39,432 bases of DNA from Caulobacteraceae bacterium (GTDB taxonomy: Bacteria; Pseudomonadota; Alphaproteobacteria; Caulobacterales; Caulobacteraceae), in the NCBI GenBank assembly GCA_025352085.1, contig JANXUA010000077.1:1-39432 (forward strand). Direction: 5' to 3'. The notes under the pieces were generated by a model, which saw only the letters and a list, made by a program, of their open reading frames with translations, did not search any database and was not told the DNA's origin. Of this stretch, positions 2,977 to 14,067 are shown piece after piece. The number at the start of each line of letters is the position of its first letter. The first letter of the stretch is position 1. The position numbers were made by a program, and so were the translations under genes.

Positions 2977-4686
2977 TCAGCTCGCCGCCGGCTCGCTCTC
3001 GGCCATGACCAGCGCCTCCGCATAACTTGCCGCATAGATCACGCCGCCGCTTTCGGGGCCCATGCCCATCTGCCGCAGGGTGTCGAGGGGCTGTTCGCGA
3101 ACGCCGCTGAGAATGATCCGCACGCCTTCGCGCCGCCAACGCTGGATGAAATCGTGCAGCACGCCGGCCCCGGTCGCGTCCATCACCGGCGCTCGGCTCA
3201 TGCGCAGAATGATCGCCCGCGGCGGGCGGTCGATGACGTCGAGCAGCTCGGCGATGACCCCGGCCGCGCCGAAGAACAACGGACCGCGCAACTGGAACAC
3301 CTCCACGCCCGGCGGCACGACGTCGCGCTGATCGTCGGGCTCGGGCGCGCCCGGATCCTCGTCTTCATCGATGATCGAGCCCTGAGCCAGTGTGGCGGCT
3401 TGCGCCATCCGATGCATGAAGATCATCGCGGCCATGACGACGCCAACGCCAATGGCGATGGTCAGGTCGACGAGCACGGTCAGGGCGAGGGTGGTGACCA
3501 GCACCAGACGCTCGCCCATCGGCGCCCGCATCAGGCGCACAAGCTTGTGGGGCTCGCTCATGGTCCAGGCCACCACCAACAGAATGGCCGCGAGGCTGGC
3601 CAAAGGCGCGAAGCTCACCAGAGGGGCGCCGGCCAGCATAAAGGCGAAGATCAGGGCGGCGTGGATGATGCCGGCCACCGGCGTGCGTCCACCCGAACGA
3701 ATGTTGGTCGCCGTTCTGGCGATCGCTCCGGTCGCCGGCAGGCCGCCCAACACCGCTGACGCGAGATTGGCGATCCCTTGCGCCACAAGCTCCATGTTGG
3801 AGCGATGACGTCGGCCGGTCATGCCGTCGGCGACCATGGCCGAAAGCAGGCTCTCAACCCCGGCCAGAAAGGCGATGGTGAAGGCGCTGGGGATGAGGGC
3901 GCGCAAACGCGGCCAACTCACCATCGGCAAATCGGGGGCCGGAAGGGCGAGATTGAGGCGGCCAAAGCGCGAGCCGATGGTCTCGACCGGTAGGTGCAAG
4001 GCGTGGACGGCCAAGGCGGCGAGGACCACGGCGATCAGAAAGCCCGGCGCGCGGGGCGCGAAACGTCGCAGGATCAGGATGACGCCCAAGGCGCCCGTCG
4101 CGACCGCGACGGCGTAGGGCGAAACGCTGGCCCGCGCGGCCCACATGGCCGCCCATTTGGCGAAAAATTCCGCCGGCGCGGCGTGCATGGTCAGGCCGAG
4201 CAAGTCGCGCACCTGACTGGAGACGATGACGATCGCGATTCCGCCGGTAAATCCGGCCACCACCGGTTCGGGTATGTATTTGATCCACGATCCCAACCGG
4301 GCCAGTCCTGCAATCACGAGCAGGGCCCCGGCCATCAGCGTGGCCAGCAACAGTCCATCGAAGCCCTGACGCGCGACAATATTGTAGACCACGACGACGA
4401 AGGCGCCCGTGGGACCGCCGATCTGGAAGCGGCTGCCGCCAAACGCCGAGATCAGGAACCCCGCGACGGCCGCGGTCAGCAGCCCCTTTTCCGGCGTGCT
4501 TCCGGACGCGATCGCCAGGGCCATGGCCAGCGGCAGAGCCACAATGGCGACGGTGAGGCCGGCCAGGCCGTCCTGGCGCAGGGTCTTGAGGGTGTAGCCT
4601 TCGCGAAAAACGCTGACCAGCTTGGGGGTGAACTCGCGCCAACTACGGGCCGTCGTCCGGCTTGATTTGGTCGCGGTGAAGGCCAT
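2977..4686 (-). CDS. SulP-family inorganic anion transporter with STAS domain
   Basis: A 569-residue inner-membrane carrier of the SulP/SLC26 family. After a cytosolic N-terminus of ~40 residues come about a dozen hydrophobic segments. Family marks include the first core helices (GLAGLTVAIVALPLAMALAI), the FGGSRFQIGGPTGAF segment, and IPEPVVAGFTGGIAIVI. A C-terminal STAS domain (about 450-560) contains APVMDATGAGVLHDFIQ, the usual anti-sigma-factor-antagonist loop. Family members move sulfate, bicarbonate, C4-dicarboxylates or other anions, and sequence alone does not choose. The start lies 51 bases after the RcnA-like stop on the same strand, so it may be the third gene of that unit. The sulfur genes nearby make sulfate attractive, but that is inference. 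Confidence 0.9.
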   Translation of the reverse strand: MAFTATKSSRTTARSWREFTPKLVSVFREGYTLKTLRQDGLAGLTVAIVALPLAMALAIASGSTPEKGLLTAAVAGFLISAFGGSRFQIGGPTGAFVVVVYNIVARQGFDGLLLATLMAGALLVIAGLARLGSWIKYIPEPVVAGFTGGIAIVIVSSQVRDLLGLTMHAAPAEFFAKWAAMWAARASVSPYAVAVATGALGVILILRRFAPRAPGFLIAVVLAALAVHALHLPVETIGSRFGRLNLALPAPDLPMVSWPRLRALIPSAFTIAFLAGVESLLSAMVADGMTGRRHRSNMELVAQGIANLASAVLGGLPATGAIARTATNIRSGGRTPVAGIIHAALIFAFMLAGAPLVSFAPLASLAAILLVVAWTMSEPHKLVRLMRAPMGERLVLVTTLALTVLVDLTIAIGVGVVMAAMIFMHRMAQAATLAQGSIIDEDEDPGAPEPDDQRDVVPPGVEVFQLRGPLFFGAAGVIAELLDVIDRPPRAIILRMSRAPVMDATGAGVLHDFIQRWRREGVRIILSGVREQPLDTLRQMGMGPESGGVIYAASYAEALVMAESEPAAS

Positions 4687-4737
4687 CCACCTGGGATGGC
4701 GCCTAGCCCACTAACGAGTCAACAACGACGCCCGGAT

Positions 4738-5598
4738 CTAGGTCTGCCCGGCGATCGCGCCCAGGGCCTGCCAGGTCAGGGCTGCGCCGACCACGGTGAT
4801 CAGCGCGGCCGAGGCATAGGGCGCGCGGCGCGCGAGCGTGGCGAAACTGTCGGACCAGCGCTTCTCCATGTGCCGCATGCCGAGCGCCGCGACCACGCCG
4901 ACCGAAACCATCGTCGCCGCCAGGCCGATCGAGAAGCACAACACCAGAACCGCCCCCATAGCCACCTGTTTCAGTTGCAGACACAGCAGCAGGACCGTGA
5001 TCGAAGCCGGGCACGGGATCAGGCCGCCGGTCAGGCCGAAAATGATGATCTGGCCGGTGGTCACCTTCCGGTCGGCGAAGCGCCGGCGGATGTCCTGGGC
5101 GTGCGCCCGCTCGTGGGCATCCTGAAAGCCCGGCGCGGCGACGTCGAGGCCGCCATGATCGTGGTCGTGATCATCGTCGTCGTGGTCATCGGCGTGATGA
5201 TGGTCGTGATCATGATCGTGGTGATGATGATCGGCCTCCGCCGCCTCCTGGCGTTGTTCGCGCCAGGTTCGCCAGATCATCCAGCCGGCCACGGCGAAAA
5301 TGATTACGGCGGAGGCCAGCTGGAAATAGGGTTCGGAGGTCTGCAGGTTGAGCCGGGCGCCGAAATAGAGACCGCCAAGTGCGATGGCCCACACGATGGC
5401 GGTGTGCGACAGCGTCGCCGAAAGGCCCAGCAGTACGGCCTGGCCCACGGAGCCGCGGATGGCGACGATGAAGGCGGCCATCATGGTCTTGGAATGGCCG
5501 GGCTCCAGCCCGTGCAGGGCCCCCAGCAGGATGGCGCTGGGGATGAACAGCCACAGATTGACGCTGCCTTGCTGCAACAGGTGGGCGATGTCGGGCAT
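4738..5598 (-). CDS. RcnA-like nickel/cobalt efflux protein
   Basis: A 286-residue membrane protein of the NicO/RcnA group, expected to export Ni(II)/Co(II) across the inner membrane. Two family marks are visible: GALHGLEPGHSKTMMAAF near residues 22-39, and the GLIPCPASITVLLLCLQL segment in the second half. Between the two membrane halves lies a cytosolic loop very rich in His and Asp (roughly residues 130-160), the usual metal-collecting region. The ATG at 5598 is chosen because it forms a TGATG overlap with the stop of the metal sensor upstream and begins the conserved protein. A longer in-frame extension to 5952 is merely the sensor gene read in another frame. Co-transcription with the sensor is clear. 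Confidence 0.9.
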   Translation of the reverse strand: MPDIAHLLQQGSVNLWLFIPSAILLGALHGLEPGHSKTMMAAFIVAIRGSVGQAVLLGLSATLSHTAIVWAIALGGLYFGARLNLQTSEPYFQLASAVIIFAVAGWMIWRTWREQRQEAAEADHHHHDHDHDHHHADDHDDDDHDHDHGGLDVAAPGFQDAHERAHAQDIRRRFADRKVTTGQIIIFGLTGGLIPCPASITVLLLCLQLKQVAMGAVLVLCFSIGLAATMVSVGVVAALGMRHMEKRWSDSFATLARRAPYASAALITVVGAALTWQALGAIAGQT

Positions 5599-5843
5599 CA
5601 GAGGTATTTGGCCAATTGTTTGATTTCTTTGAGATCGGCGGGCGTGGCATCGTCGAGACAGTTCTCGAAATGGTCGTGGATCAGTTCGCGCTTGGCGCTG
5701 GTCACCGCCGCTTCGACCGCGTGCAACTGTTGCGCCAGGTCGACGCAGGATCGGCCATCCTCGATCATGGCGATCACCGAACGCAAATGGCCTTCGACCC
5801 GCTTGAGGCGTTTGATGATGTCGGTGTGGGAGCCGTGGGACAT
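5598..5843 (-). CDS. Metal-sensing repressor, CsoR/RcnR/FrmR family (DUF156)
   Basis: An 81-residue all-helical repressor of the DUF156 family. The pattern IIKRLKRVEGHLRSVIAMIEDGRSC followed by LAQQLHAVEAAVTSAKREL is diagnostic when read in parts. Cys33, His58 and Cys62 have the spacing of the X-Y-Z ligands of CsoR and of the nickel sensor InrS. His3 and His6 near the N-terminus could add the extra ligands seen in RcnR-type nickel/cobalt sensors. It overlaps the exporter gene by one base and has a G-tract palindrome directly upstream, so it very probably represses its own operon until metal binds. Ni or Co is favoured by the exporter; Cu is less likely. Confidence 0.9.
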   Translation of the reverse strand: MSHGSHTDIIKRLKRVEGHLRSVIAMIEDGRSCVDLAQQLHAVEAAVTSAKRELIHDHFENCLDDATPADLKEIKQLAKYL

Positions 5844-6024: not shown

Positions 6025-6324
6025 TCAGAAGTATGCCGCGACGCTCTCGCTGTGCGTCACGTCCGGTGTTCCAACGAAAAACGGGCCGGCAAGGGCGCGC
6101 CATTCGCCAAAGGCCGCGGAGTTGCGGAAGTCGCGCATGTGCGCCTCGACGCTCTCCCAACGGACAACGAGACGGTATTGGCCGGGGCGCTCGATCACGC
6201 GTTCGAGGGCTATGCCGTGACAACCATGGGCCGCCCGGAACAGGGGCGCGGCTATCGCCACGGCGGTCTCGAAGTCGGCGGCCCTGGCCGGATCGATGGT
6301 CAGCATGGCGATTTCGGTGATCAT
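6025..6324 (-). CDS. Antibiotic biosynthesis monooxygenase (ABM) family protein
   Basis: A 99-residue single ABM-domain protein (dimeric ferredoxin-like fold). The pattern is typical: first strand MITEIAMLTIDPARAADFE, then GCHGIALERVIERPGQYRLVVRWES, and the late helix HMRDFRNSAAFGEWRALAGPF. Members include small cofactor-free monooxygenases, haem-degrading enzymes and many stress-linked proteins without known reaction. The gene is last in the apparent seven-gene minus-strand unit, 32 bases after the cystathionine beta-lyase stop. Its role in that sulfur/molybdate setting is unknown. The family call is solid. Confidence 0.8.
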   Translation of the reverse strand: MITEIAMLTIDPARAADFETAVAIAAPLFRAAHGCHGIALERVIERPGQYRLVVRWESVEAHMRDFRNSAAFGEWRALAGPFFVGTPDVTHSESVAAYF

Positions 6325-6356
6325 CGTGTTTGAACCTTTAAGAGACGGAGCGCCGT

Positions 6357-7523
6357 TCAGCGGGCGCCGACGACCGCCAGAGCGCGATCAAGATCGGCGA
6401 TCAGGTCGCCAGGATCTTCCAGACCAACGTTTAGGCGTACGACCGGGCCTTCGAAGGTTTCGCGAAACGAGCGCACGCCGAACTGCGGATCGCCGTCGAG
6501 AGCCAAACTCTCGAACCCGCCCCATGAAAAACCCAATCCAAATATCTGTAACGTATCGAGAAAGGCGTGCACGTCGCGCTTGCGACAGGGTTTGAGCACC
6601 ACGCCAAACAGCCCCGCCGCGCCGGCATAATCGCGCGCCCAAACGGCGTGGTCGGGAGACTCGGGGAGGGCGGGGTGGAGCACCCTCGCCACCCTGGGAT
6701 GGTCGCGCAGCCAGCGCGCCACCGCCAGACCGCTTTGCTGGTGGCGCGTCATGCGGGTCGGCAGGGTGCGCAGGCCGCGCAGCATCTGATAGGCGTCCTC
6801 GGGGGCGACGGACCAGCCGAAATCCATGATCGCCTGGTCGAGGGCCTCGGTCAGGGCGCGCTCGCGGGTCGCCACACTGCCCATGAACACGTCGGCATGG
6901 CCGCCAACGTATTTGGTCAGCGCCTGCATCGACAGGTCGATGCCGTGGTCGAGCGGTTTGAAGAGAAGCCCCGCCGCCCAGGTGTTGTCCATCAGCGTCA
7001 GGATGCCCCGTTCGCGGGCGCGCCGCGCGATCCCCGGCGCGTCCTGGATCTCGAAGGTGAGCGAGCCGGGCGACTCCAGCACGATCAGGCGGGTGGCGGG
7101 AGACGCCATGGCCATGATCTCGTCGGGCGTCGCTCGCGGCGGATAATAACGGACGGTGACGCCAAAGCGCTTCAGCGTCCGGTCGCAGAACCGGTGCGTG
7201 GGTTTATAGGCCGCGTCGGTGACCAGAACGTCGTCGCCGGCCTTCAGCACCGCCAGCATGGCGCCGGTGATGGCGGCCAGACCGGACGAAAACAGGCGCA
7301 CGGTCGTGGCGTGCTCCAGTTCGGCCAGGGCGCTCATCAACGCTTCCTGCGTCGCCAGCCCGGCCCGGCCGTAGGTAGCCTTGGAGTCATCGTAGAGGGC
7401 CGCGGCGGTGGGGACGAGAACGGTCGATCCCTTCTGGATCGGCGGCCCGACGGTGCGCAGCAGGGGCTCGTCCACCCGGCCGGCGTGGATCAGGCGGGTG
7501 GCGTCCTTGTCGGAGGCGCTCAT
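6357..7523 (-). CDS. metC: Cystathionine beta-lyase (PLP)
   Basis: A 388-residue PLP enzyme of the Cys/Met-metabolism family (fold type I) that cleaves cystathionine to homocysteine, pyruvate and ammonia. Members can also release H2S from cysteine. Visible marks are the start TRLIHAGR, YGRAGLATQEALMSALAELE, the cofactor region LFSSGLAAITGAML, DNTWAAGLLFKPLDHGIDL, and the Schiff-base Lys204 in ALTKYVGGHADVFMGS. The DNTWAAG form points to the metC branch rather than gamma-lyases. The ATG at 7523 overlaps the upstream sulfurtransferase stop as ATGA; the longer upstream start would overlap that gene much more. Cytosolic, translationally coupled to its neighbour. Confidence 0.88.
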   Translation of the reverse strand: MSASDKDATRLIHAGRVDEPLLRTVGPPIQKGSTVLVPTAAALYDDSKATYGRAGLATQEALMSALAELEHATTVRLFSSGLAAITGAMLAVLKAGDDVLVTDAAYKPTHRFCDRTLKRFGVTVRYYPPRATPDEIMAMASPATRLIVLESPGSLTFEIQDAPGIARRARERGILTLMDNTWAAGLLFKPLDHGIDLSMQALTKYVGGHADVFMGSVATRERALTEALDQAIMDFGWSVAPEDAYQMLRGLRTLPTRMTRHQQSGLAVARWLRDHPRVARVLHPALPESPDHAVWARDYAGAAGLFGVVLKPCRKRDVHAFLDTLQIFGLGFSWGGFESLALDGDPQFGVRSFRETFEGPVVRLNVGLEDPGDLIADLDRALAVVGAR

Positions 7524-8362
7524 GGCCCGACCGCGACCGGCGTGTCGGCCCGCGCGCCCCATTCGCTCCACGATCCGTCGTAGACCGCCACGTCATCGCG
7601 GCCGATCACGGCCAGAGCGAGGGCCAGCGACGCCGCGCTGACTCCCGAGCCACAAGTGGTGATGATGGGCCCCGCCAGATCGACGCCCGCGGCTTCGAAG
7701 GCCGCCTTGAGCGTTTCGGGGGGCTTGAGGGCGCCGTCCGCGACCAGGGCTGACCACGGCAGGTTCAGGGCGCCCGGCATATGGCCGCCGCGCAGGCCGG
7801 CGCGGGGTTCGGCGATCTCGCCGGTAAAGCGCCCCGCCGCCCGCGCGTCGACGATCTGCGCGGCATGGTCGTCGAGTGTGCGTTTCACCGCCTCAAGATC
7901 GCGCACCAGGCGGGGTTCCGGCCGGGCCTTGAAATCGCCGTGCGGCGCGTCCCGCCAGCCGGTCTCGACCGCGTGGCCTTCGGCGATCCAGCGCGGCAGG
8001 CCGCCATCGAGCACGAAAGTCGCCGCGTGGCCCATGGCGCGGAAATTCCACCATACACGGGGGGCCGAAAACAGCCCTTCGGCGTCATAGACAACCACGG
8101 TCGAGGCCGCATTGACCCCCAGGCGTCGCGCGGCGACGGCGAAGTCGGCCGGGGCGCTCAACATATGCGGCAGGTCGGTTGTGTGGTCGGAGATTTCGTC
8201 GATCGAGAAGAACCGAGCGCCGGGAACGTGGCCGGCGGCGTAACCAGCGGCGGCGTCGCGCGTGTCGCCGGGCATGAACCAGGTCGCGTCCAGGACAAGC
8301 AGCAGCGGATCATCCAGATGATCGGCCAGCCAGGCGGTCGAAACGAGGGGGGATTTTATCAT
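7520..8362 (-). CDS. sseA: 3-mercaptopyruvate/thiosulfate sulfurtransferase
   Basis: A two-rhodanese-domain protein of about 280 residues. The N-terminal inactive domain carries WLADHLDDPLLLVLDATWFMP and HVPGARFFSIDEISD; the C-terminal domain carries DARAAGRFTGE and HMPGALNLPW. The active-site loop is TCGSGVSA with Cys near residue 237. CG(S/V)GV(S/T)A loops mark 3-mercaptopyruvate sulfurtransferases rather than thiosulfate rhodaneses. The enzyme makes a protein persulfide from mercaptopyruvate and passes sulfur to thiols, and it can feed H2S or cofactor sulfuration. The ATG at 8362 overlaps the cysK stop as ATGA, which sets the start. It sits between cysK and metC. Confidence 0.88.
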   Translation of the reverse strand: MIKSPLVSTAWLADHLDDPLLLVLDATWFMPGDTRDAAAGYAAGHVPGARFFSIDEISDHTTDLPHMLSAPADFAVAARRLGVNAASTVVVYDAEGLFSAPRVWWNFRAMGHAATFVLDGGLPRWIAEGHAVETGWRDAPHGDFKARPEPRLVRDLEAVKRTLDDHAAQIVDARAAGRFTGEIAEPRAGLRGGHMPGALNLPWSALVADGALKPPETLKAAFEAAGVDLAGPIITTCGSGVSAASLALALAVIGRDDVAVYDGSWSEWGARADTPVAVGP

Positions 8363-9429
8363 GCCAGCCACGGCGGTATCGCCAGGCCGCGCTCCTTGAG
8401 GAATTGGGGGTTGAAGAGCTTGCTCTGATAACGCGAGCCGTGATCGCACAGAATGGTCACGATGGTGTGGCCCGGGCCCATGTCCCGCGCCATGCGGACG
8501 GCGCCGGCGACATTAATGCCTGTCGATCCACCCATCAGCAGGCCCTCGTGTTGCGCCAGATCGATCACGGCCCGCATCATCTCCTGATCGTTGATCTGAT
8601 AAGGGTGGTCGACGGTCAGCCCCTCAAGATTGGCGGTGATCCGACCCTGGCCGATGCCTTCGGAAATCGAGGTTCCTTCGGCCTTGAGTTCGCCGTTGGC
8701 GTACCAGTTGTAAAGCGAGGCGCCGAGGGGGTCGGCGAGGCCGATCGCGACCATCGGATTTCGCGCGCGCAGGGCCATGGCGACGCCCGCTAACGTGCCG
8801 CCAGAGCCAACCGCGCATATGAACCCGTCAACCTTGCCGCCGGTCTGCGTCCAGATTTCCGGACCGGTGGTTTCCTCGTGCGCCTGGCGGTTGGCGACGT
8901 TGTCGAACTGATTGGCCCAAACCGCGCCGGCCGGCTCACTTTTGTTAAGTTCCTCCGCCAAACGACCGGAATAGCGCACATAATTGTCCGGATTTGTGTA
9001 AGGAACCGCGTCGACTTCGACCAGAGTCGCGCCCATCAGGCGGATGGCGTCCTTCTTTTCCTGGCTCTGGGTGCGCGGAATGACGATGGTCGTCGAATAG
9101 CCGAGCGCCACGCCGACCATGGCCAGGCCGATGCCGGTATTGCCGGCGGTCCCTTCGACGATCCGGCCGCCCGGTTTGAGCGCGCCGCGGCGCTCGGCGT
9201 CGCGAATGATGTACAAGGCGGCGCGATCCTTCACCGACTGGCCAGGGTTCATGAACTCGGCCTTGGCGAGGATTTCGCACCCCGTCGCCTCGCTGGCGCG
9301 GCGCAGACGGATGAGCGGGGTATTGCCGATGGCGTCGACGATGGAGGCGGCGATGGACGGGGTCATCGCCCCTTCATTCGCCATCAACCGGCGCCGATGC
9401 AAGGGAAAATGGCCGCCGAACGCGCCCAT
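8359..9429 (-). CDS. cysK: Cysteine synthase (O-acetylserine sulfhydrylase)
   Basis: A PLP enzyme (fold type II) that makes cysteine from O-acetylserine and sulfide. Seen in sequence: VDAIGNTPLIRL, the cofactor lysine in NPGQSVKDRAAL (Lys67 with this start), the substrate loop EGTAGNTGIGLAMV, the phosphate-binding AVGSGGTLAGVA, and GLLMGGSTGINVAGA. It resembles the CysK group without a regulatory domain. The start is uncertain: 9429 has AGAAGG five bases upstream, while 9384 and 9366 give 341 and 335 residues and fit the core better. With the first start only 27 bases separate it from modA, so the sulfur genes appear to continue the modE-modA transcript. Confidence 0.88.
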   Translation of the reverse strand: MGAFGGHFPLHRRRLMANEGAMTPSIAASIVDAIGNTPLIRLRRASEATGCEILAKAEFMNPGQSVKDRAALYIIRDAERRGALKPGGRIVEGTAGNTGIGLAMVGVALGYSTTIVIPRTQSQEKKDAIRLMGATLVEVDAVPYTNPDNYVRYSGRLAEELNKSEPAGAVWANQFDNVANRQAHEETTGPEIWTQTGGKVDGFICAVGSGGTLAGVAMALRARNPMVAIGLADPLGASLYNWYANGELKAEGTSISEGIGQGRITANLEGLTVDHPYQINDQEMMRAVIDLAQHEGLLMGGSTGINVAGAVRMARDMGPGHTIVTILCDHGSRYQSKLFNPQFLKERGLAIPPWLA

Positions 9430-9456
9430 TCGGACCTTCTTTAGGGGCGCGTCGCC

Positions 9457-10245
9457 CTAGCGCTTGGGCAGGACGACGAACCCGTATCTGCGAAACAGCG
9501 CCGTGGCCTGGGGCGCATCCAGAAAGCCCAGGAACGCGCGCGCGCCGGGGTTAGTCGATGCGGCGATCGCCGCGGTGGGATAGACGATCGGGGGGTGACT
9601 ATCGTCGGGCAGCAGGCCGACAACGCGCACATCCGGCTCGACCTTGGCGTCGGTGTCATAGACCACGCCCAGTGGCGTCTCGCCGCGCGCGACAAAGGCC
9701 AGGGCCGCGCGCACGTTTTCCGCCCGCGCCAGCTTGTCCTTGACGCTGTCCCACACGCCGAGCGTGGTCAGGGACGCCTGGGCGTATTTGCCGGCGGGCA
9801 CATCGGGTCCGGCAACCGCCAGGCGCCCGGCGCCCAGCGCCGCGGCTATCGGCATGCCCTTGGCGACGCGGAGCCTGGTGTCCGAAAACGCCGGAGCGAT
9901 CAGGGCCAGATGGTTGGTGAGCAGGTCGCGGCGACTGGCCGGCGCGATCAAGCCGCGCTGGCCGACATAGTCCATCCACTGGCTGTCGGCCGAAATGAAC
10001 ACGTCAGCCGGCGCGCCCTGCTCGATCTGCCGGGCGAGGGCGGAGGATGCGCCGTAGGAAAACCGCACCGGCGCATGGGTCCTGGCCGTATAGGCCTTGC
10101 CGATGTCGTCCATGACGTTCTTGAGCGAGGCGGCGGCGAAGACGGTCACCGGCGCGGGCTCGGCGGCCGTAGCCGCGATCGGCGCGGTCAAGACCAACAC
10201 CGCCAATGCGACCAACAGGGTTCGGCGTGGTCGAATGAGGATCAT
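9457..10245 (-). CDS. modA: Molybdate-binding periplasmic protein ModA
   Basis: A 262-residue solute-binding protein with a clear Sec signal peptide (Arg-rich start, hydrophobic LLVALAVLVLTAPIAATAA, cleavage near residue 28). The mature part opens with VTVFAAASLKNVMDDIGKAY and then FSYGASSALARQIEQGAPADVFISA, the ModA oxyanion pocket segments in which Ser residues bind molybdate or tungstate. YDTDAKVEP and FLDAPQATALFRRYGF are typical of the C-terminal lobe. It starts three bases after the modE stop, with GTGGAG inside modE serving as SD. ModA normally works with ModB and ModC, but neither is encoded in this window, so the partner permease must be elsewhere or different. Confidence 0.92.
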   Translation of the reverse strand: MILIRPRRTLLVALAVLVLTAPIAATAAEPAPVTVFAAASLKNVMDDIGKAYTARTHAPVRFSYGASSALARQIEQGAPADVFISADSQWMDYVGQRGLIAPASRRDLLTNHLALIAPAFSDTRLRVAKGMPIAAALGAGRLAVAGPDVPAGKYAQASLTTLGVWDSVKDKLARAENVRAALAFVARGETPLGVVYDTDAKVEPDVRVVGLLPDDSHPPIVYPTAAIAASTNPGARAFLGFLDAPQATALFRRYGFVVLPKR

Positions 10246-10248
10246 GAT

Positions 10249-11052
10249 CTACTCCACGGCCAGAATGATGTGCGAGGCCTTGATCAAGGCCGCCGCCGGC
10301 TGGCCGGCGCACAGATCAAGTTCGCGGGCGCTTTCGCGGGTGATGGTCGCGGTGAGCACCTTGCCGGCCTCCAGGATCAGAGTGATCTCGCTGTTGACCG
10401 CGCCGTCCTCGCGATGGTCGACAACGCCGGTCAAACGGTTGCGCGCCGACGTCCGCAGCGCCTCGCCGGCCGGCGCCAGGATGATCGAACTGGCCTTGAT
10501 CAGCGCTATGGCCTCCCGTCCGGGCGCGAGATCCAGGTCGGCGACGCTCTGACGGGTGATGATGGCGACAACCTCGACACCCTCGGCGATTTTCAGCACC
10601 ACCTCCGAATTGACCGCGCCGGGGGTGACGGCGACGACGACCCCGCGCAGGGCGTTGCGCGCGCTGGTTTTCATGGCGAACCTCCCGAACACGGACGAGA
10701 GCGGCGCCGCCCGGTCGCCCAACCGCCGCTCCACCCTTTCCAAGGCGAGATTAAGCTCGATCTCCAGCGCGTGGAAGACGGTGATCACGTCCAGACCTTC
10801 CTGCGTCACCGCCGCCAGGCCGCCGCTTCGGCCACCGACGCGTGTCGTCACCAGAGGGGTTTCAAACAGATTGTTGATCGCCTGGACCGCGTCCCAGGCG
10901 GCCTTGTAGCTCAAGCCCACGGCCTTGGCGGCCAGGGTGATCGAGGCATGGTCGCGCACCGCTTCCAAGAGGGCGATCCGGGCGCGTCCGACCGGCGAGC
11001 GCGCGCCCCGGCTCAACACCAGCGAGGCCGTGACTGTGTCCGCCCGCGTCAT
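10249..11052 (-). CDS. modE: Molybdate-responsive transcription regulator ModE
   Basis: A full-length ModE of 267 residues. The N-terminal winged helix (about 20-125) has ARIALLEAVRDHASITLAAK and AVGLSYKAAWDAVQAINNLF, the ModE DNA-binding signature. Two tandem Mop/TOBE domains follow: TSARNALRGVVVAV...AVNSEVVL (about 130-195) and TSARNRLTGVV...AVNSEITL (about 200-265). These bind molybdate at the dimer interface. With Mo bound, the family usually represses uptake genes. It lies between the porin and modA, three bases from each, and its likely site is the palindrome before the porin. It should therefore regulate its own operon. Confidence 0.93.
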   Translation of the reverse strand: MTRADTVTASLVLSRGARSPVGRARIALLEAVRDHASITLAAKAVGLSYKAAWDAVQAINNLFETPLVTTRVGGRSGGLAAVTQEGLDVITVFHALEIELNLALERVERRLGDRAAPLSSVFGRFAMKTSARNALRGVVVAVTPGAVNSEVVLKIAEGVEVVAIITRQSVADLDLAPGREAIALIKASSIILAPAGEALRTSARNRLTGVVDHREDGAVNSEITLILEAGKVLTATITRESARELDLCAGQPAAALIKASHIILAVE

Positions 11053-11055
11053 CGT

Positions 11056-12732
11056 CTAAAACCCAAATTGCGAACGCAGAGCAACCGCGTTGTAGCTCTG
11101 GCCGATCTGCGCGCCGACCGGCGTGCCGTAGGTGAAGGCGTCGGGCGACAGGCGGTCGAGTTTGACGTGCTGCCCCTCCAGCGCCAGGCGGACATAAGAA
11201 TTGAGGTACCAGTTCAAACCGGCGGTCCACACCTGAAGCTCGCCGCCGCGCACGGAGTCCGCGAACGGGGCGCTGCCCGCAGCTCCGGTATGGTAGTTCA
11301 GGTTCATATCCGAATAGCGTACCGTAAGCTCCATCGCCCCGAAACCGCCGTTGGCGCCCAGAGGCCGTCGCACCGTCGGGGCGTCAAAGGCCGCCGTCGC
11401 GTTATTGTAACGTCGCGTCTCGCCGGTGACGAGCCAGCTTCCCTCGACATAATAGCCCTGAAAGCGCGGGTTGCTGACACCGACCGCCGCGCGCTGGACG
11501 TCGAAGTGATCGTATTCGCTCTGCACCAGAAAACCGCGCCATTGGGCGGCGAATTCCACGCCCTCGTTGGCGGCGTGGCGTGCGTCGATGTTGCCGGTAT
11601 TGATCAGGCGGGTTCCATCGATCCGCAGTTCGGCCTGATCGCTGAAGGCGACCGTACGGCCGGAAATCGGCGTGAGCCCGGAGGCGGCCGGACCGCTGAC
11701 ATTGGCCGGACGATCCAGATATTGCCCGTGAACGCCGACGTGGACGCGCCAATCGGCGCCGTGCAGCGGCGTCGCGGCGAGGCGCCCGACAAAGGCGAGG
11801 GGGTCGCCGAACGTCTGCGCCGTGCCGGTCAGGCTGGTGTTGACCACGCCGATGGCGCGGCCGGTGACGGCGACCGAAGCGAGCCAGTGATCGCCGTAGC
11901 CGAAAACCTGCGCTGCCGTGCGCGTATCGCCGGCGGCGAAATTGCGGGCGACATCGGCGGACGCGGCGCGCTCGAGCAGGGGCTGAGCGGCCGTTGAATC
12001 CTGGTCGGCGAGACCCTGCAGGGGCGCGAAGGCCCCGATCCGGATATGTAGGGGCCTTAGCCCGTTGTACTGCCCCCAGGCCTCATAGAGCTGGCCGGAA
12101 TTCTCCACCCCCGAACCGCCAAAATCATAGACGCCGCGATACTGGAAATCCCGAAACAGGGTTCCGCTCACGCCAAAGCGGCCGCGCCGAAAATTGTCGC
12201 CGTCCTTCAGCTGCCGGGCGTGCGCCGCGTCGACGTTTGCCGCCGTAAAGCCGAGCGCCGGGCCGCTCCGACGCAAATCGCCGGCGACGGGCCCGGGAGC
12301 TCTCTGGTCATAGAAGCCGGTGTCAAGTTGAACCAGTCCATAGAGGTTCAGGCTGAATTTGTTGTCGGCCGTGGCGAGACCCACCTCACCATTGTTGAAG
12401 GTCGTAAGGACGACGGGGCCTTTGGGTTTGACCGCCGGTTCGGCGGCGATCGGGCGGCCTGTCATCACGGTCAGGTCGGTGACTCTCGCCTGCAGCTGGC
12501 TGACCCGGTCCTTCAGAGCCGCGTTTTCCGCCGCCAGGCCGCTTTGCGCTTGCACCTGCGCCTGGAGCGTCGCGACCGCCGCCTCCAGACGCGCGATCCG
12601 CGCATCCTCGGACGCCGCTGCGCTCTGGGCCCAAACAGGCGCGGCGCACATCAGCATTGAGCCGCTCAACAGGACGGTCGATAGCCCGCCGGCCCGCGTC
12701 ATTTTCAGCATCGAGGAACCCATGTCGTTCAT
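11056..12732 (-). CDS. OprP/OprO-like outer-membrane porin
   Basis: A 558-residue outer-membrane beta-barrel protein. It has a signal peptide (hydrophobic TVLLSGSMLMCAAPVWAQ, cleavage after AQA/S near residue 36) and a periplasmic coiled-coil segment at about 43-88 (DARIARLEAAVATLQAQVQ, then ENAALKDRVSQLQARVTDL). A long barrel follows, with alternating aromatic strands and a C-terminal Phe (RSQFGF) as recognised by BAM. NFRRGRFGVSGTLFRDFQYRGVYDFG matches the phosphate-selective porin O/P family when read in parts. It heads the modE-modA unit with a three-base gap to modE. No SD precedes 12732 or the internal ATGs at 12723, 12711 and 12702, so a leaderless or very short-leader transcript is likely; the true start could be 12723. 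Confidence 0.85.
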   Translation of the reverse strand: MNDMGSSMLKMTRAGGLSTVLLSGSMLMCAAPVWAQSAAASEDARIARLEAAVATLQAQVQAQSGLAAENAALKDRVSQLQARVTDLTVMTGRPIAAEPAVKPKGPVVLTTFNNGEVGLATADNKFSLNLYGLVQLDTGFYDQRAPGPVAGDLRRSGPALGFTAANVDAAHARQLKDGDNFRRGRFGVSGTLFRDFQYRGVYDFGGSGVENSGQLYEAWGQYNGLRPLHIRIGAFAPLQGLADQDSTAAQPLLERAASADVARNFAAGDTRTAAQVFGYGDHWLASVAVTGRAIGVVNTSLTGTAQTFGDPLAFVGRLAATPLHGADWRVHVGVHGQYLDRPANVSGPAASGLTPISGRTVAFSDQAELRIDGTRLINTGNIDARHAANEGVEFAAQWRGFLVQSEYDHFDVQRAAVGVSNPRFQGYYVEGSWLVTGETRRYNNATAAFDAPTVRRPLGANGGFGAMELTVRYSDMNLNYHTGAAGSAPFADSVRGGELQVWTAGLNWYLNSYVRLALEGQHVKLDRLSPDAFTYGTPVGAQIGQSYNAVALRSQFGF

Positions 12733-12757
12733 CGTTATGTAGATTGACTACATAGCG
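12733..12757 (-). promoter_or_regulatory. ModE-binding palindrome (Mo-box)
   Basis: The half-sites CGTTATGTA and TACATAGCG are near-perfect inverted repeats (CGYTATGTA) around a 7-base centre; the inner 7-base arms TATGTAG/CTACATA match exactly. The CG(T/C)TAT...ATA(A/G)CG ends agree with the ModE consensus known from E. coli and Rhodobacter mod promoters. It abuts the porin ATG and covers the probable -10 element, as expected for a molybdate-dependent repressor site. The presence of modE two genes into the same operon supports the call. Confidence 0.8.
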
Positions 12758-12765
12758 CCGGTCAA
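12736..12765 (-). promoter_or_regulatory. Probable sigma70-type promoter of the porin-modE-modA unit
   Basis: On the minus strand TTGACC (12765-12760) and TACATA (12741-12736) are separated by 18 bases, a good -35/-10 pair. Transcription would begin about at the porin start codon, explaining the missing SD. The -10 hexamer lies inside the Mo-box. Confidence 0.55.
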
Positions 12766-12798: not shown

Positions 12799-14067
12799 TT
12801 AAGGTCGCGCCAAGGTCAGCTGAATCACATTGGTGCGTTCGGTGCGAAACGCCGCCTCGCAATAGCGAAGATAAAAGGTCCACAGCCGCCGGAAGCGCTC
12901 GTCGAAGCCGAGGGCCGATATTTCGTCCCACGCGCTCTCGAACCGCGTCGCCCATTGCGCCAGGGTCTCGGCGTAGCTCTGGCCAAAGCGGGTGAGGGCG
13001 CCCCATTGCAAACCGGCCCGCGCGCTCTCTTCACGCAGGCGTCGTTCGCTCGGCAGCATGCCGCCGGGAAAGACATATTTGCGCATGAAGTCGGACCGGC
13101 GGCGATAGACGGCGAAGAGGTCGTCGCGGATGGTGATGATCTGCAGCCCGGCGCGGCCGCCCGGCTCCAGGACGTCGCGGACCTTGTCGAAATAGCCCGG
13201 CCAATAGGCCTCGCCGACCGCCTCGAACATTTCGATGGAGGCGACCCGGTCGAAGCGCCCGACGATATCGCGATAGTCCATCAGCTTGATATCGACGCGA
13301 TCGGCGAGGCCCTGATCGAACAGGCGTTTGCGCGCGAAATCATATTGCGCCGGCGAGATGGTGACGCCAGTCACCTTCGCGCCGACCTCCTTGGCGGCGA
13401 ATTCCGCGAATCCGCCCCAGCCGCAGCCGATTTCGAGAACAGAATGTCCGGCCTGAAGATCAATGCTTTGGGCCAGGGCCTGGTATTTGTGATTTTGGGC
13501 GTCGGCGAGGGACTGTCCGGGCTCCTCGAACAACGCCGCGGAATAGGTCATGCCGGCGTCCAGCCATTGCGAATAAAAGGCGTTGCCCAGATCGTAGTGG
13601 GCCAGAATGTTGCGCTTGGACCCAGCGCGGGAGTTGCGGTTGATCAGATGGGCGAGGAAATTGATCGTCCGCGTCACCGGATTTCCGTCGACCAGCTTTT
13701 CCAGGTGGTCGAAGTTGAGGGTGAAAGCCTCCAGCAGGGCGGGCAGATCGGGCGTGTCCCACTCGCCGGCCATGTAGCCCTCGCCAAAGCCGATGTCGCC
13801 GCCGGCCAGGACGCGGCCGACAAAGCGAAAGTCGTGAATGATGAGCCGGGCGTGGGGTCCCGGCGCGAGCCCTTGAATGTGCATGGACCGACCCGAAGGG
13901 AGCACGAAGGTCAGATTGCCGGCGGCCCACTTTCGCCGCGCAATGGCCACGGCGGTTCGGAACGCCGCCGGCGCCGCCAGCAACTCGCGAACATCAATGG
14001 CGTCGGGGGTTCGATCGTTCGGCCCGATGGGTGAAAGGGCCGGGCGTCCAAAAGCGGTGTCGGTCAT
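12799..14067 (-). CDS. cfa: Cyclopropane-fatty-acyl-phospholipid synthase family methyltransferase
   Basis: A 422-residue SAM-dependent enzyme of the CFA/mycolic-acid cyclopropane synthase family that adds a methylene to unsaturated phospholipid acyl chains. The order is typical: a lipid-binding N-terminal domain (about 35-140, with FGEGYMAGEWDTPDLPALLE), HYDLGNAFYSQWLD at 157-170, MTYSAALF at 173-180, the SAM loop LEIGCGWGGFAEFA at 211-224, and SIEMFEAVGEAYWPGYF later. The ATG at 14067 overlaps the photolyase stop as ATGA, so the two are coupled. The pairing matches stress operons of other alphaproteobacteria where both respond to singlet oxygen. An upstream in-frame extension to 14391 is the photolyase gene in another frame. 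Confidence 0.9.
   Translation of the reverse strand: MTDTAFGRPALSPIGPNDRTPDAIDVRELLAAPAAFRTAVAIARRKWAAGNLTFVLPSGRSMHIQGLAPGPHARLIIHDFRFVGRVLAGGDIGFGEGYMAGEWDTPDLPALLEAFTLNFDHLEKLVDGNPVTRTINFLAHLINRNSRAGSKRNILAHYDLGNAFYSQWLDAGMTYSAALFEEPGQSLADAQNHKYQALAQSIDLQAGHSVLEIGCGWGGFAEFAAKEVGAKVTGVTISPAQYDFARKRLFDQGLADRVDIKLMDYRDIVGRFDRVASIEMFEAVGEAYWPGYFDKVRDVLEPGGRAGLQIITIRDDLFAVYRRRSDFMRKYVFPGGMLPSERRLREESARAGLQWGALTRFGQSYAETLAQWATRFESAWDEISALGFDERFRRLWTFYLRYCEAAFRTERTNVIQLTLARP

Follow-up and report, generated by a model that had tools for sequence, protein, structure and literature searches.

Molybdate-uptake genes and enzymes of sulfur amino-acid metabolism stand in close succession on the minus strand of a 39,432-nucleotide (nt) contig of a Caulobacteraceae bacterium (JANXUA010000077.1, assembly GCA_025352085.1; the whole contig is called the window here, and its genome G000). 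The genes run in the order porin, modE, modA, cysK, sseA, metC and a gene for an ABM-domain protein, an order given in the initial annotation and borne out by family searches and solved relatives. That annotation proposed a possible single ModE-controlled operon of all seven genes. The best-supported account, to which we assign a probability of about 0.78, is instead that of two adjoining transcription units with possible readthrough as a by-product. The first would be porin-modE-modA with a Mo-box overlapping its promoter; molybdate-loaded ModE would repress this unit, an autoregulation, and the unit would open when molybdate is scarce. The second would be an older operon, cysK-sseA-metC, with a conserved promoter of its own at 9404-9374 and an mRNA that begins at or a few bases from the cysK start codon. 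The mod cassette would have come between a cyclopropane fatty-acid synthase (CFA) gene and cysK in the common ancestor with a sister species (G004), where it would have been mostly deleted again. Any molybdate response of the sulfur genes would pass through readthrough beyond modA and need not have been selected.

The first unit is headed by a predicted ModE operator at 12757-12733 on the minus strand, as initially annotated. This Mo-box reads CGCTATGTAGTCAATCTACATAACG and has no mismatch to the consensus CGNTATNTA-N7-TANATANCG. It covers the spacer and the -10 region of a candidate mod promoter whose putative -35 element would be TTGAC at 12761-12765 (minus strand). When a pattern built from the Mo-box was searched against the 3.02-Mb genome at up to three mismatches, no second match was found. 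The consensus was also run, at up to two mismatches, against 57 sources, namely the window and 56 others that had been fetched (701,777 bases; L045, an AT-rich outlier, and L046 were left out). The scan returned 28 sites in 26 of the 57 sources, one being the window's own, and 23 of the 27 outside the window precede a mod gene or porin match by no more than 400 nt; none turned up in a single simulated sequence matched in length and dinucleotide make-up. A genus relative (G013) has a Mo-box with one mismatch 119 nt before the modE match of a modE-modA pair, and in G258 (L245) a Mo-box with two mismatches is followed by porin-modA-modB-modC-modE. The scan found no Mo-box in the other 31 sources, including four loci in which modE lies beside or near sulfate ABC transporter genes (L038, L041, L043 and L044). 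Matches to ModE itself are present in 107 of 299 family genomes (E 1e-40).

Three genes follow this operator. The first, at 11056-12732, encodes an outer-membrane porin of the Porin_O_P family (Pfam, 1.6e-40); it is 49% identical to the porin of the mod operon in L245 and 59% identical to that of a sulfate operon in L041, both also Porin_O_P. The product of modE (10249-11052) is a full-length ModE-type regulator for which molybdate-dependent DNA binding is predicted. It has the N-terminal winged helix-turn-helix (HTH) domain (Pfam HTH_1, 4.2e-07) and two C-terminal TOBE/Mop molybdate-binding domains (PF03459 in two stretches; TIGR00638 over cut-off), and residues 24-265 align with 1o7l, which together with 1b9m is the best solved relative, both being named ModE. 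It stays under the cut-offs of TIGR00637 (87.4 bits vs 98.5) and of the equivalog NF007957 (143 bits vs 369). The third gene, modA (9457-10245), encodes a molybdate-binding protein (TIGR01256 over cut-off; best solved relative 2h5y). Because the motif precedes mod genes in relatives as well, the Mo-box-led porin-modE-modA can be regarded as a variant of the ModE-repressed uptake operon, and its assignment as a ModE-controlled molybdate-uptake unit, already made in the initial annotation, is supported by the sequence.

Of modA, modB and modC, only modA is present in the cassette. A ModB over cut-off is encoded on another contig of the same genome (C163), and no ModC passes the family cut-off there, a strict cut-off that was reached in only one of 14 control genomes. 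In G000 the best ModC matches are the CysA of the sulfate operon (C106) and, on C13, an ATPase that by eye resembles the sugar type. It may be CysA that serves both ModA and ModB; we offer this as a lead only, given how strict the ModC cut-off is. Both modE and modA have a single match in the genome and are closest to the genus member G013, with 69% and 75% identity, respectively; because of these identities no distant donor is needed for the cassette, and horizontal transfer from such a donor was set aside. In G013 an inositol-monophosphatase-family gene, possibly cysQ, stands 121 nt after modE-modA on the same strand (L032, 551-2225).

The surroundings of cysK in relatives bear on which of the two units is the older resident. 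A cysK match was found in 59 of 60 genomes at E 1e-30 and in 15 of the 16 genus genomes at E 1e-100, the window's own being counted in each case. The CFA gene directly precedes cysK in 11 of these 15, and metC follows sseA in ten of the 11; in the remaining one, G009, the contig ends before that point. The four exceptions are G004, which has a 939-nt gap, G006, with a DsbA-like gene, G003, with no CFA gene within reach, and the window's own genome, where porin-modE-modA stands between CFA and cysK. The CFA gene (12799-14067, minus strand; identified by family search and by gene order in the genus) forms the left edge of the insertion, its stop at 12799 lying 66 nt upstream of the porin on the same strand. 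Elsewhere the arrangement proposed as an operon did not recur in the genomes examined, an outcome that the initial annotation itself had named as evidence against its proposal. Neither modE nor modA is near cysK in any of 80 named loci, the closest from Caulobacter and Phenylobacterium, within the fetched flank (up to 7 kb, shorter at contig ends), and cysK is in none of 47 fetched modE-match neighbourhoods outside the window, which are part of all modE matches and include partial ones in L044, L045 and L046. Among 118 fetched loci with a cysK of more than 60% identity (some genomes being represented by several loci and many genus loci by only 1.5 kb of flank), the only three that hold modE or modA at more than 60 bits all belong to the window's own genome.

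A partial exception is provided by G004, the sister of G000. Its CFA stop is followed, about 7 nt further on, by the last 47 codons of a modA gene, with 22 of 47 residues identical (E 9e-8) and 98 of 144 columns matching at the DNA level (E 2e-14) when the gap alone is searched; the E value is 8.6e-6 when six loci are searched. The order in G004 is CFA, modA remnant, an ACT-domain gene (L050, 2222-2740) and then cysK with its conserved upstream element. This sequence comparison is most simply explained if the common ancestor of G000 and G004 already had the cassette between CFA and cysK, and if G004 later lost most of it but none of the sulfur genes.

The element in question lies at 9404-9374 on the minus strand, reads CCTTGCATCGGCGCCGGTTGATGGCGAATGA and is kept across the genus; its TTG is 36 nt before the ATG at 9366. 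The initial annotation regarded the Mo-box promoter as the only evident one, which does not hold if this predicted promoter-like element is counted. The element falls between 9366 and 9457, the interval in which a separate, molybdate-insensitive promoter would, by that annotation's own account, speak against a single operon. The element was modelled from the 14 other genus genomes by an ungapped 31-column alignment of the last 45 nt before the cysK start, a routine that was adopted because a Gibbs search of 100 nt before cysK had returned the conserved 3' end of the CFA gene instead. Over both strands of the whole window the top site of the resulting matrix is 9404-9374, at 24.4 bits, the next site having 13.4, and around the other seven gene starts, that of CFA among them, no site within 60 nt scores above zero. 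With a 13-row matrix, all six sites above 20 bits in 819,606 strand-bases (37 genus sources) precede cysK; five are training sequences, and the window's site is the sole non-training one. The element persists with five kinds of upstream neighbour, namely CFA, the mod cassette, the ACT-domain gene of G004, the DsbA-like gene of G006 and other DNA in G003. It seems from this that cysK-sseA-metC kept its own start signal, with 9404-9374 as the predicted promoter.

The position of the element bears on where such a promoter would act. For Caulobacter it is reported that the distance from the beginning of the RpoD motif to the transcription start is 34-37 bp in 93% of cases (PMC4287350). In the 15 genus genomes the TTG is likewise separated by 34-37 nt from the chosen cysK start codon, and by this spacing rule transcription of cysK would therefore start at the ATG. 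Another Caulobacter study counts 375 leaderless mRNAs, 9.6% of coding sequences (PMC4117421), and the -10 region of Sinorhizobium sigma-70 promoters is described as poorly conserved (PMC3616915).

Several points weigh against a separate cysK promoter or against the history proposed for the junction. The pattern TTGCNN-N17-[GA]ANNN[AG], which precedes cysK in 15 of 15 genus genomes, was composed with 14 of the 15 sequences already seen, only that of G005 being unseen, and one start codon was picked where several are possible; because of the former, the matrix that left out the window's own genome is the better test. The 14 genomes align with a score of 371, and 100 shuffles average 170 and reach 189 at most, but these shuffles preserve single-base make-up only and do not model shared ancestry. 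Outside the genus, all 25 loci examined (11 of the same family and 14 named ones, mostly Caulobacteraceae by title) lack the pattern, and conservation of the element therefore does not extend beyond the genus. In the window the second hexamer, GAATGA, is weak as a -10; GATTTA or GATCTA is present in four of the 15 genus members, which is likewise weak -10 evidence. An E. coli-type promoter scan found no promoter at 9366-9457, and none at the mod promoter either. The sisterhood of G000 and G004 has a support of 0.999 in a tree of CysK and SseA (16 sequences), which is unrooted, was built without G006 and G007, and places two sequences of other genera among the genus members. Finally, a terminator scan found none between modA and cysK, so that readthrough may be substantial.

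The distance that readthrough would have to cover depends on the start of cysK. Of the spacings listed initially, the gaps of 3, 3 and 32 nt and the two 4-nt overlaps were confirmed; the 27-nt gap between modA and cysK applies only if cysK starts at ATG 9429. The cysK starts of genus relatives fall within a few codons of ATG 9366, and the gap is therefore more likely to be about 90 nt. The terminator scan also found none after 12 other gene ends. With all 13 scanned stretches negative (one being just 34 nt long), the lack of a terminator after modA argues neither for nor against readthrough. A hairpin just after modA was rejected as a terminator because it did not exceed shuffles (z 0.60). Readthrough into cysK may occur as a side effect and would then depend on molybdate. 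A stronger version, in which the inserted autoregulated cassette made cysK-sseA-metC molybdate-responsive by readthrough on top of their own promoter, a link already lost in the sister species, we consider unlikely; if true, it would be a young regulatory link between molybdate and sulfur metabolism in one lineage.

It is also quite unlikely, in our estimate, that the conserved element serves cysK not as a promoter but as an operator or a signal for translation and that upstream genes drive cysK in every relative. The weak -10 agrees with such a role, as does a GGAAGG-like stretch that several relatives have close to the start codon (GAAGGAAGG in G015 and G008). However, the TTGC lies 34-37 nt before the ATG, too distant for a ribosome site, and the retention of the element with such different upstream neighbours argues against dependence on transcription from them.

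Mixed control, in which a constant supply from the cysK promoter is combined with physiologically relevant molybdate-dependent readthrough from the mod promoter, appears very doubtful. Both promoter candidates are present and the modA-cysK interval yielded no terminator, but the junction lacks the conservation that would indicate selection. We place the single functional operon of the initial annotation at a similarly low level. It holds that porin, ModE, ModA and the sulfur enzymes all increase jointly when molybdate is low, either for sulfuration of the molybdenum cofactor (Moco) or against sulfate competition. The shared strand, the short gaps, the undetected terminator and the mismatch-free Mo-box upstream all speak for it. 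The extension of ModE control to cysK-sseA-metC is nevertheless opposed by the conserved, separate promoter-like element before cysK, by a gene order found in no other genome examined, and by the sister species, in which the sulfur genes remain although most of the mod cassette is gone. Moreover, Moco sulfuration in known systems uses cysteine desulfurases and is not known to use CysK or MetC. That the junction is a chimeric contig, as might be feared in a genome of 187 contigs where the window is one whole contig, is largely refuted, as G004, a separate assembly, has the modA remnant at the same place and the junction is therefore no assembly error, while modE and modA each match once in the genome and are closest to a genus member.

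The sulfur unit of the two-unit account consists of three genes, all on the minus strand: cysK (8359-9366), cysteine synthase A (NF007989 over cut-off, 561 bits); sseA (7520-8362), 3-mercaptopyruvate sulfurtransferase (NF008557 over cut-off), which overlaps cysK by 4 nt; and metC (6357-7523), cystathionine beta-lyase (TIGR01324 over cut-off), which overlaps sseA by 4 nt. The ABM-domain gene (6025-6324, minus strand; Pfam ABM, 1.7e-11) had been counted as the last operon member. It was not found by tblastn at E 1e-4 in L194-L197, the four genus loci that reach past metC, and its membership in the sulfur unit is therefore unsupported. Downstream of the cluster, window positions 2977-5843 hold a SulP-family permease below the sulP and DauA cut-offs, a Ni/Co efflux protein (NF007454 over cut-off) and a small RcnR-like gene named by eye.

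The cassette can be compared with known ModE systems. It shares with E. coli ModE the HTH and two Mop/TOBE domains and a palindromic Mo-box of the same layout; unlike in E. coli, modE is itself part of the cassette that it would control, and modB is found at another place in the genome. The mod operon of G258 likewise has a Mo-box upstream of a leading Porin_O_P gene, but it includes modB and modC, has modE last and has no cysK within the 12 kb fetched. The sulfur genes, their order and their promoter-like element are the same as in the CFA-cysK-sseA-metC arrangement of the genus, which differs in having no mod genes between CFA and cysK. The closest studied case considered here is mopA-modABC of Rhodobacter capsulatus, where ModE-type proteins repress at Mo-boxes with molybdate (PMC6925177). 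The two agree in having a modE-type gene ahead of modA and Mo-box repression, here predicted; the present cassette differs by the porin before modE and by the absence of modB and modC, R. capsulatus having modABC. No ModE-controlled cysK/sseA/metC operon appeared among the literature matches listed (titles and beginnings of abstracts), a search in which ModE also matches an ordinary word and which is no proof of novelty.

Other mod genes of the genus were observed in varied settings. In five members (G014, G002, G011, G008 and G015; L220-L224), modA lies beside a TonB-dependent-receptor-like gene, and molybdoenzyme-like genes are near modA in several of these loci, all named by eye. A siroheme-synthase-like gene pairs with modB in ten of ten genus loci looked at, nine of them by eye (L179, L182, L184 and L186-L192; two copies are cut by contig ends), out of 13 genomes with a ModB over cut-off. 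In the copy of G000 (L179, 7006-8594, contig C163), modB (TIGR02141 over cut-off) overlaps the siroheme-synthase-like gene by 4 nt; the latter has CysG_dimeriser and NAD_binding_7 domains, the family test having been made on this copy only. A Moco-binding oxidoreductase is near the modB-siroheme-synthase-like pair. Directly after cysA of a sulfate ABC operon (sbp-cysT-cysW-cysA-modE), modE is found in G014 (L038) and G011 (L044), and it follows sbp in cysTWA-porin-sbp-modE of G002 (L041). No Mo-box was found near sbp in L038 and L044 at up to four mismatches, the modE of L044 being cut by the contig end, and none in L041, a locus cut upstream.

Taken as two adjoining units, the two gene groups appear to be neighbours by chance rather than parts of one control circuit. 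Tight packing of genes on a single strand can be misleading, and a look at sister species allows an inserted cassette to be told apart from an older operon. The account also predicts a near-leaderless cysK promoter that is conserved within the genus. The mod genes of this genus (modA, modB and modE) do not keep together, and several genomes have them next to sulfur genes; neighbourhoods that join molybdate and sulfur genes thus occur in more genomes than the one first noticed, and they may merit a study of their own.

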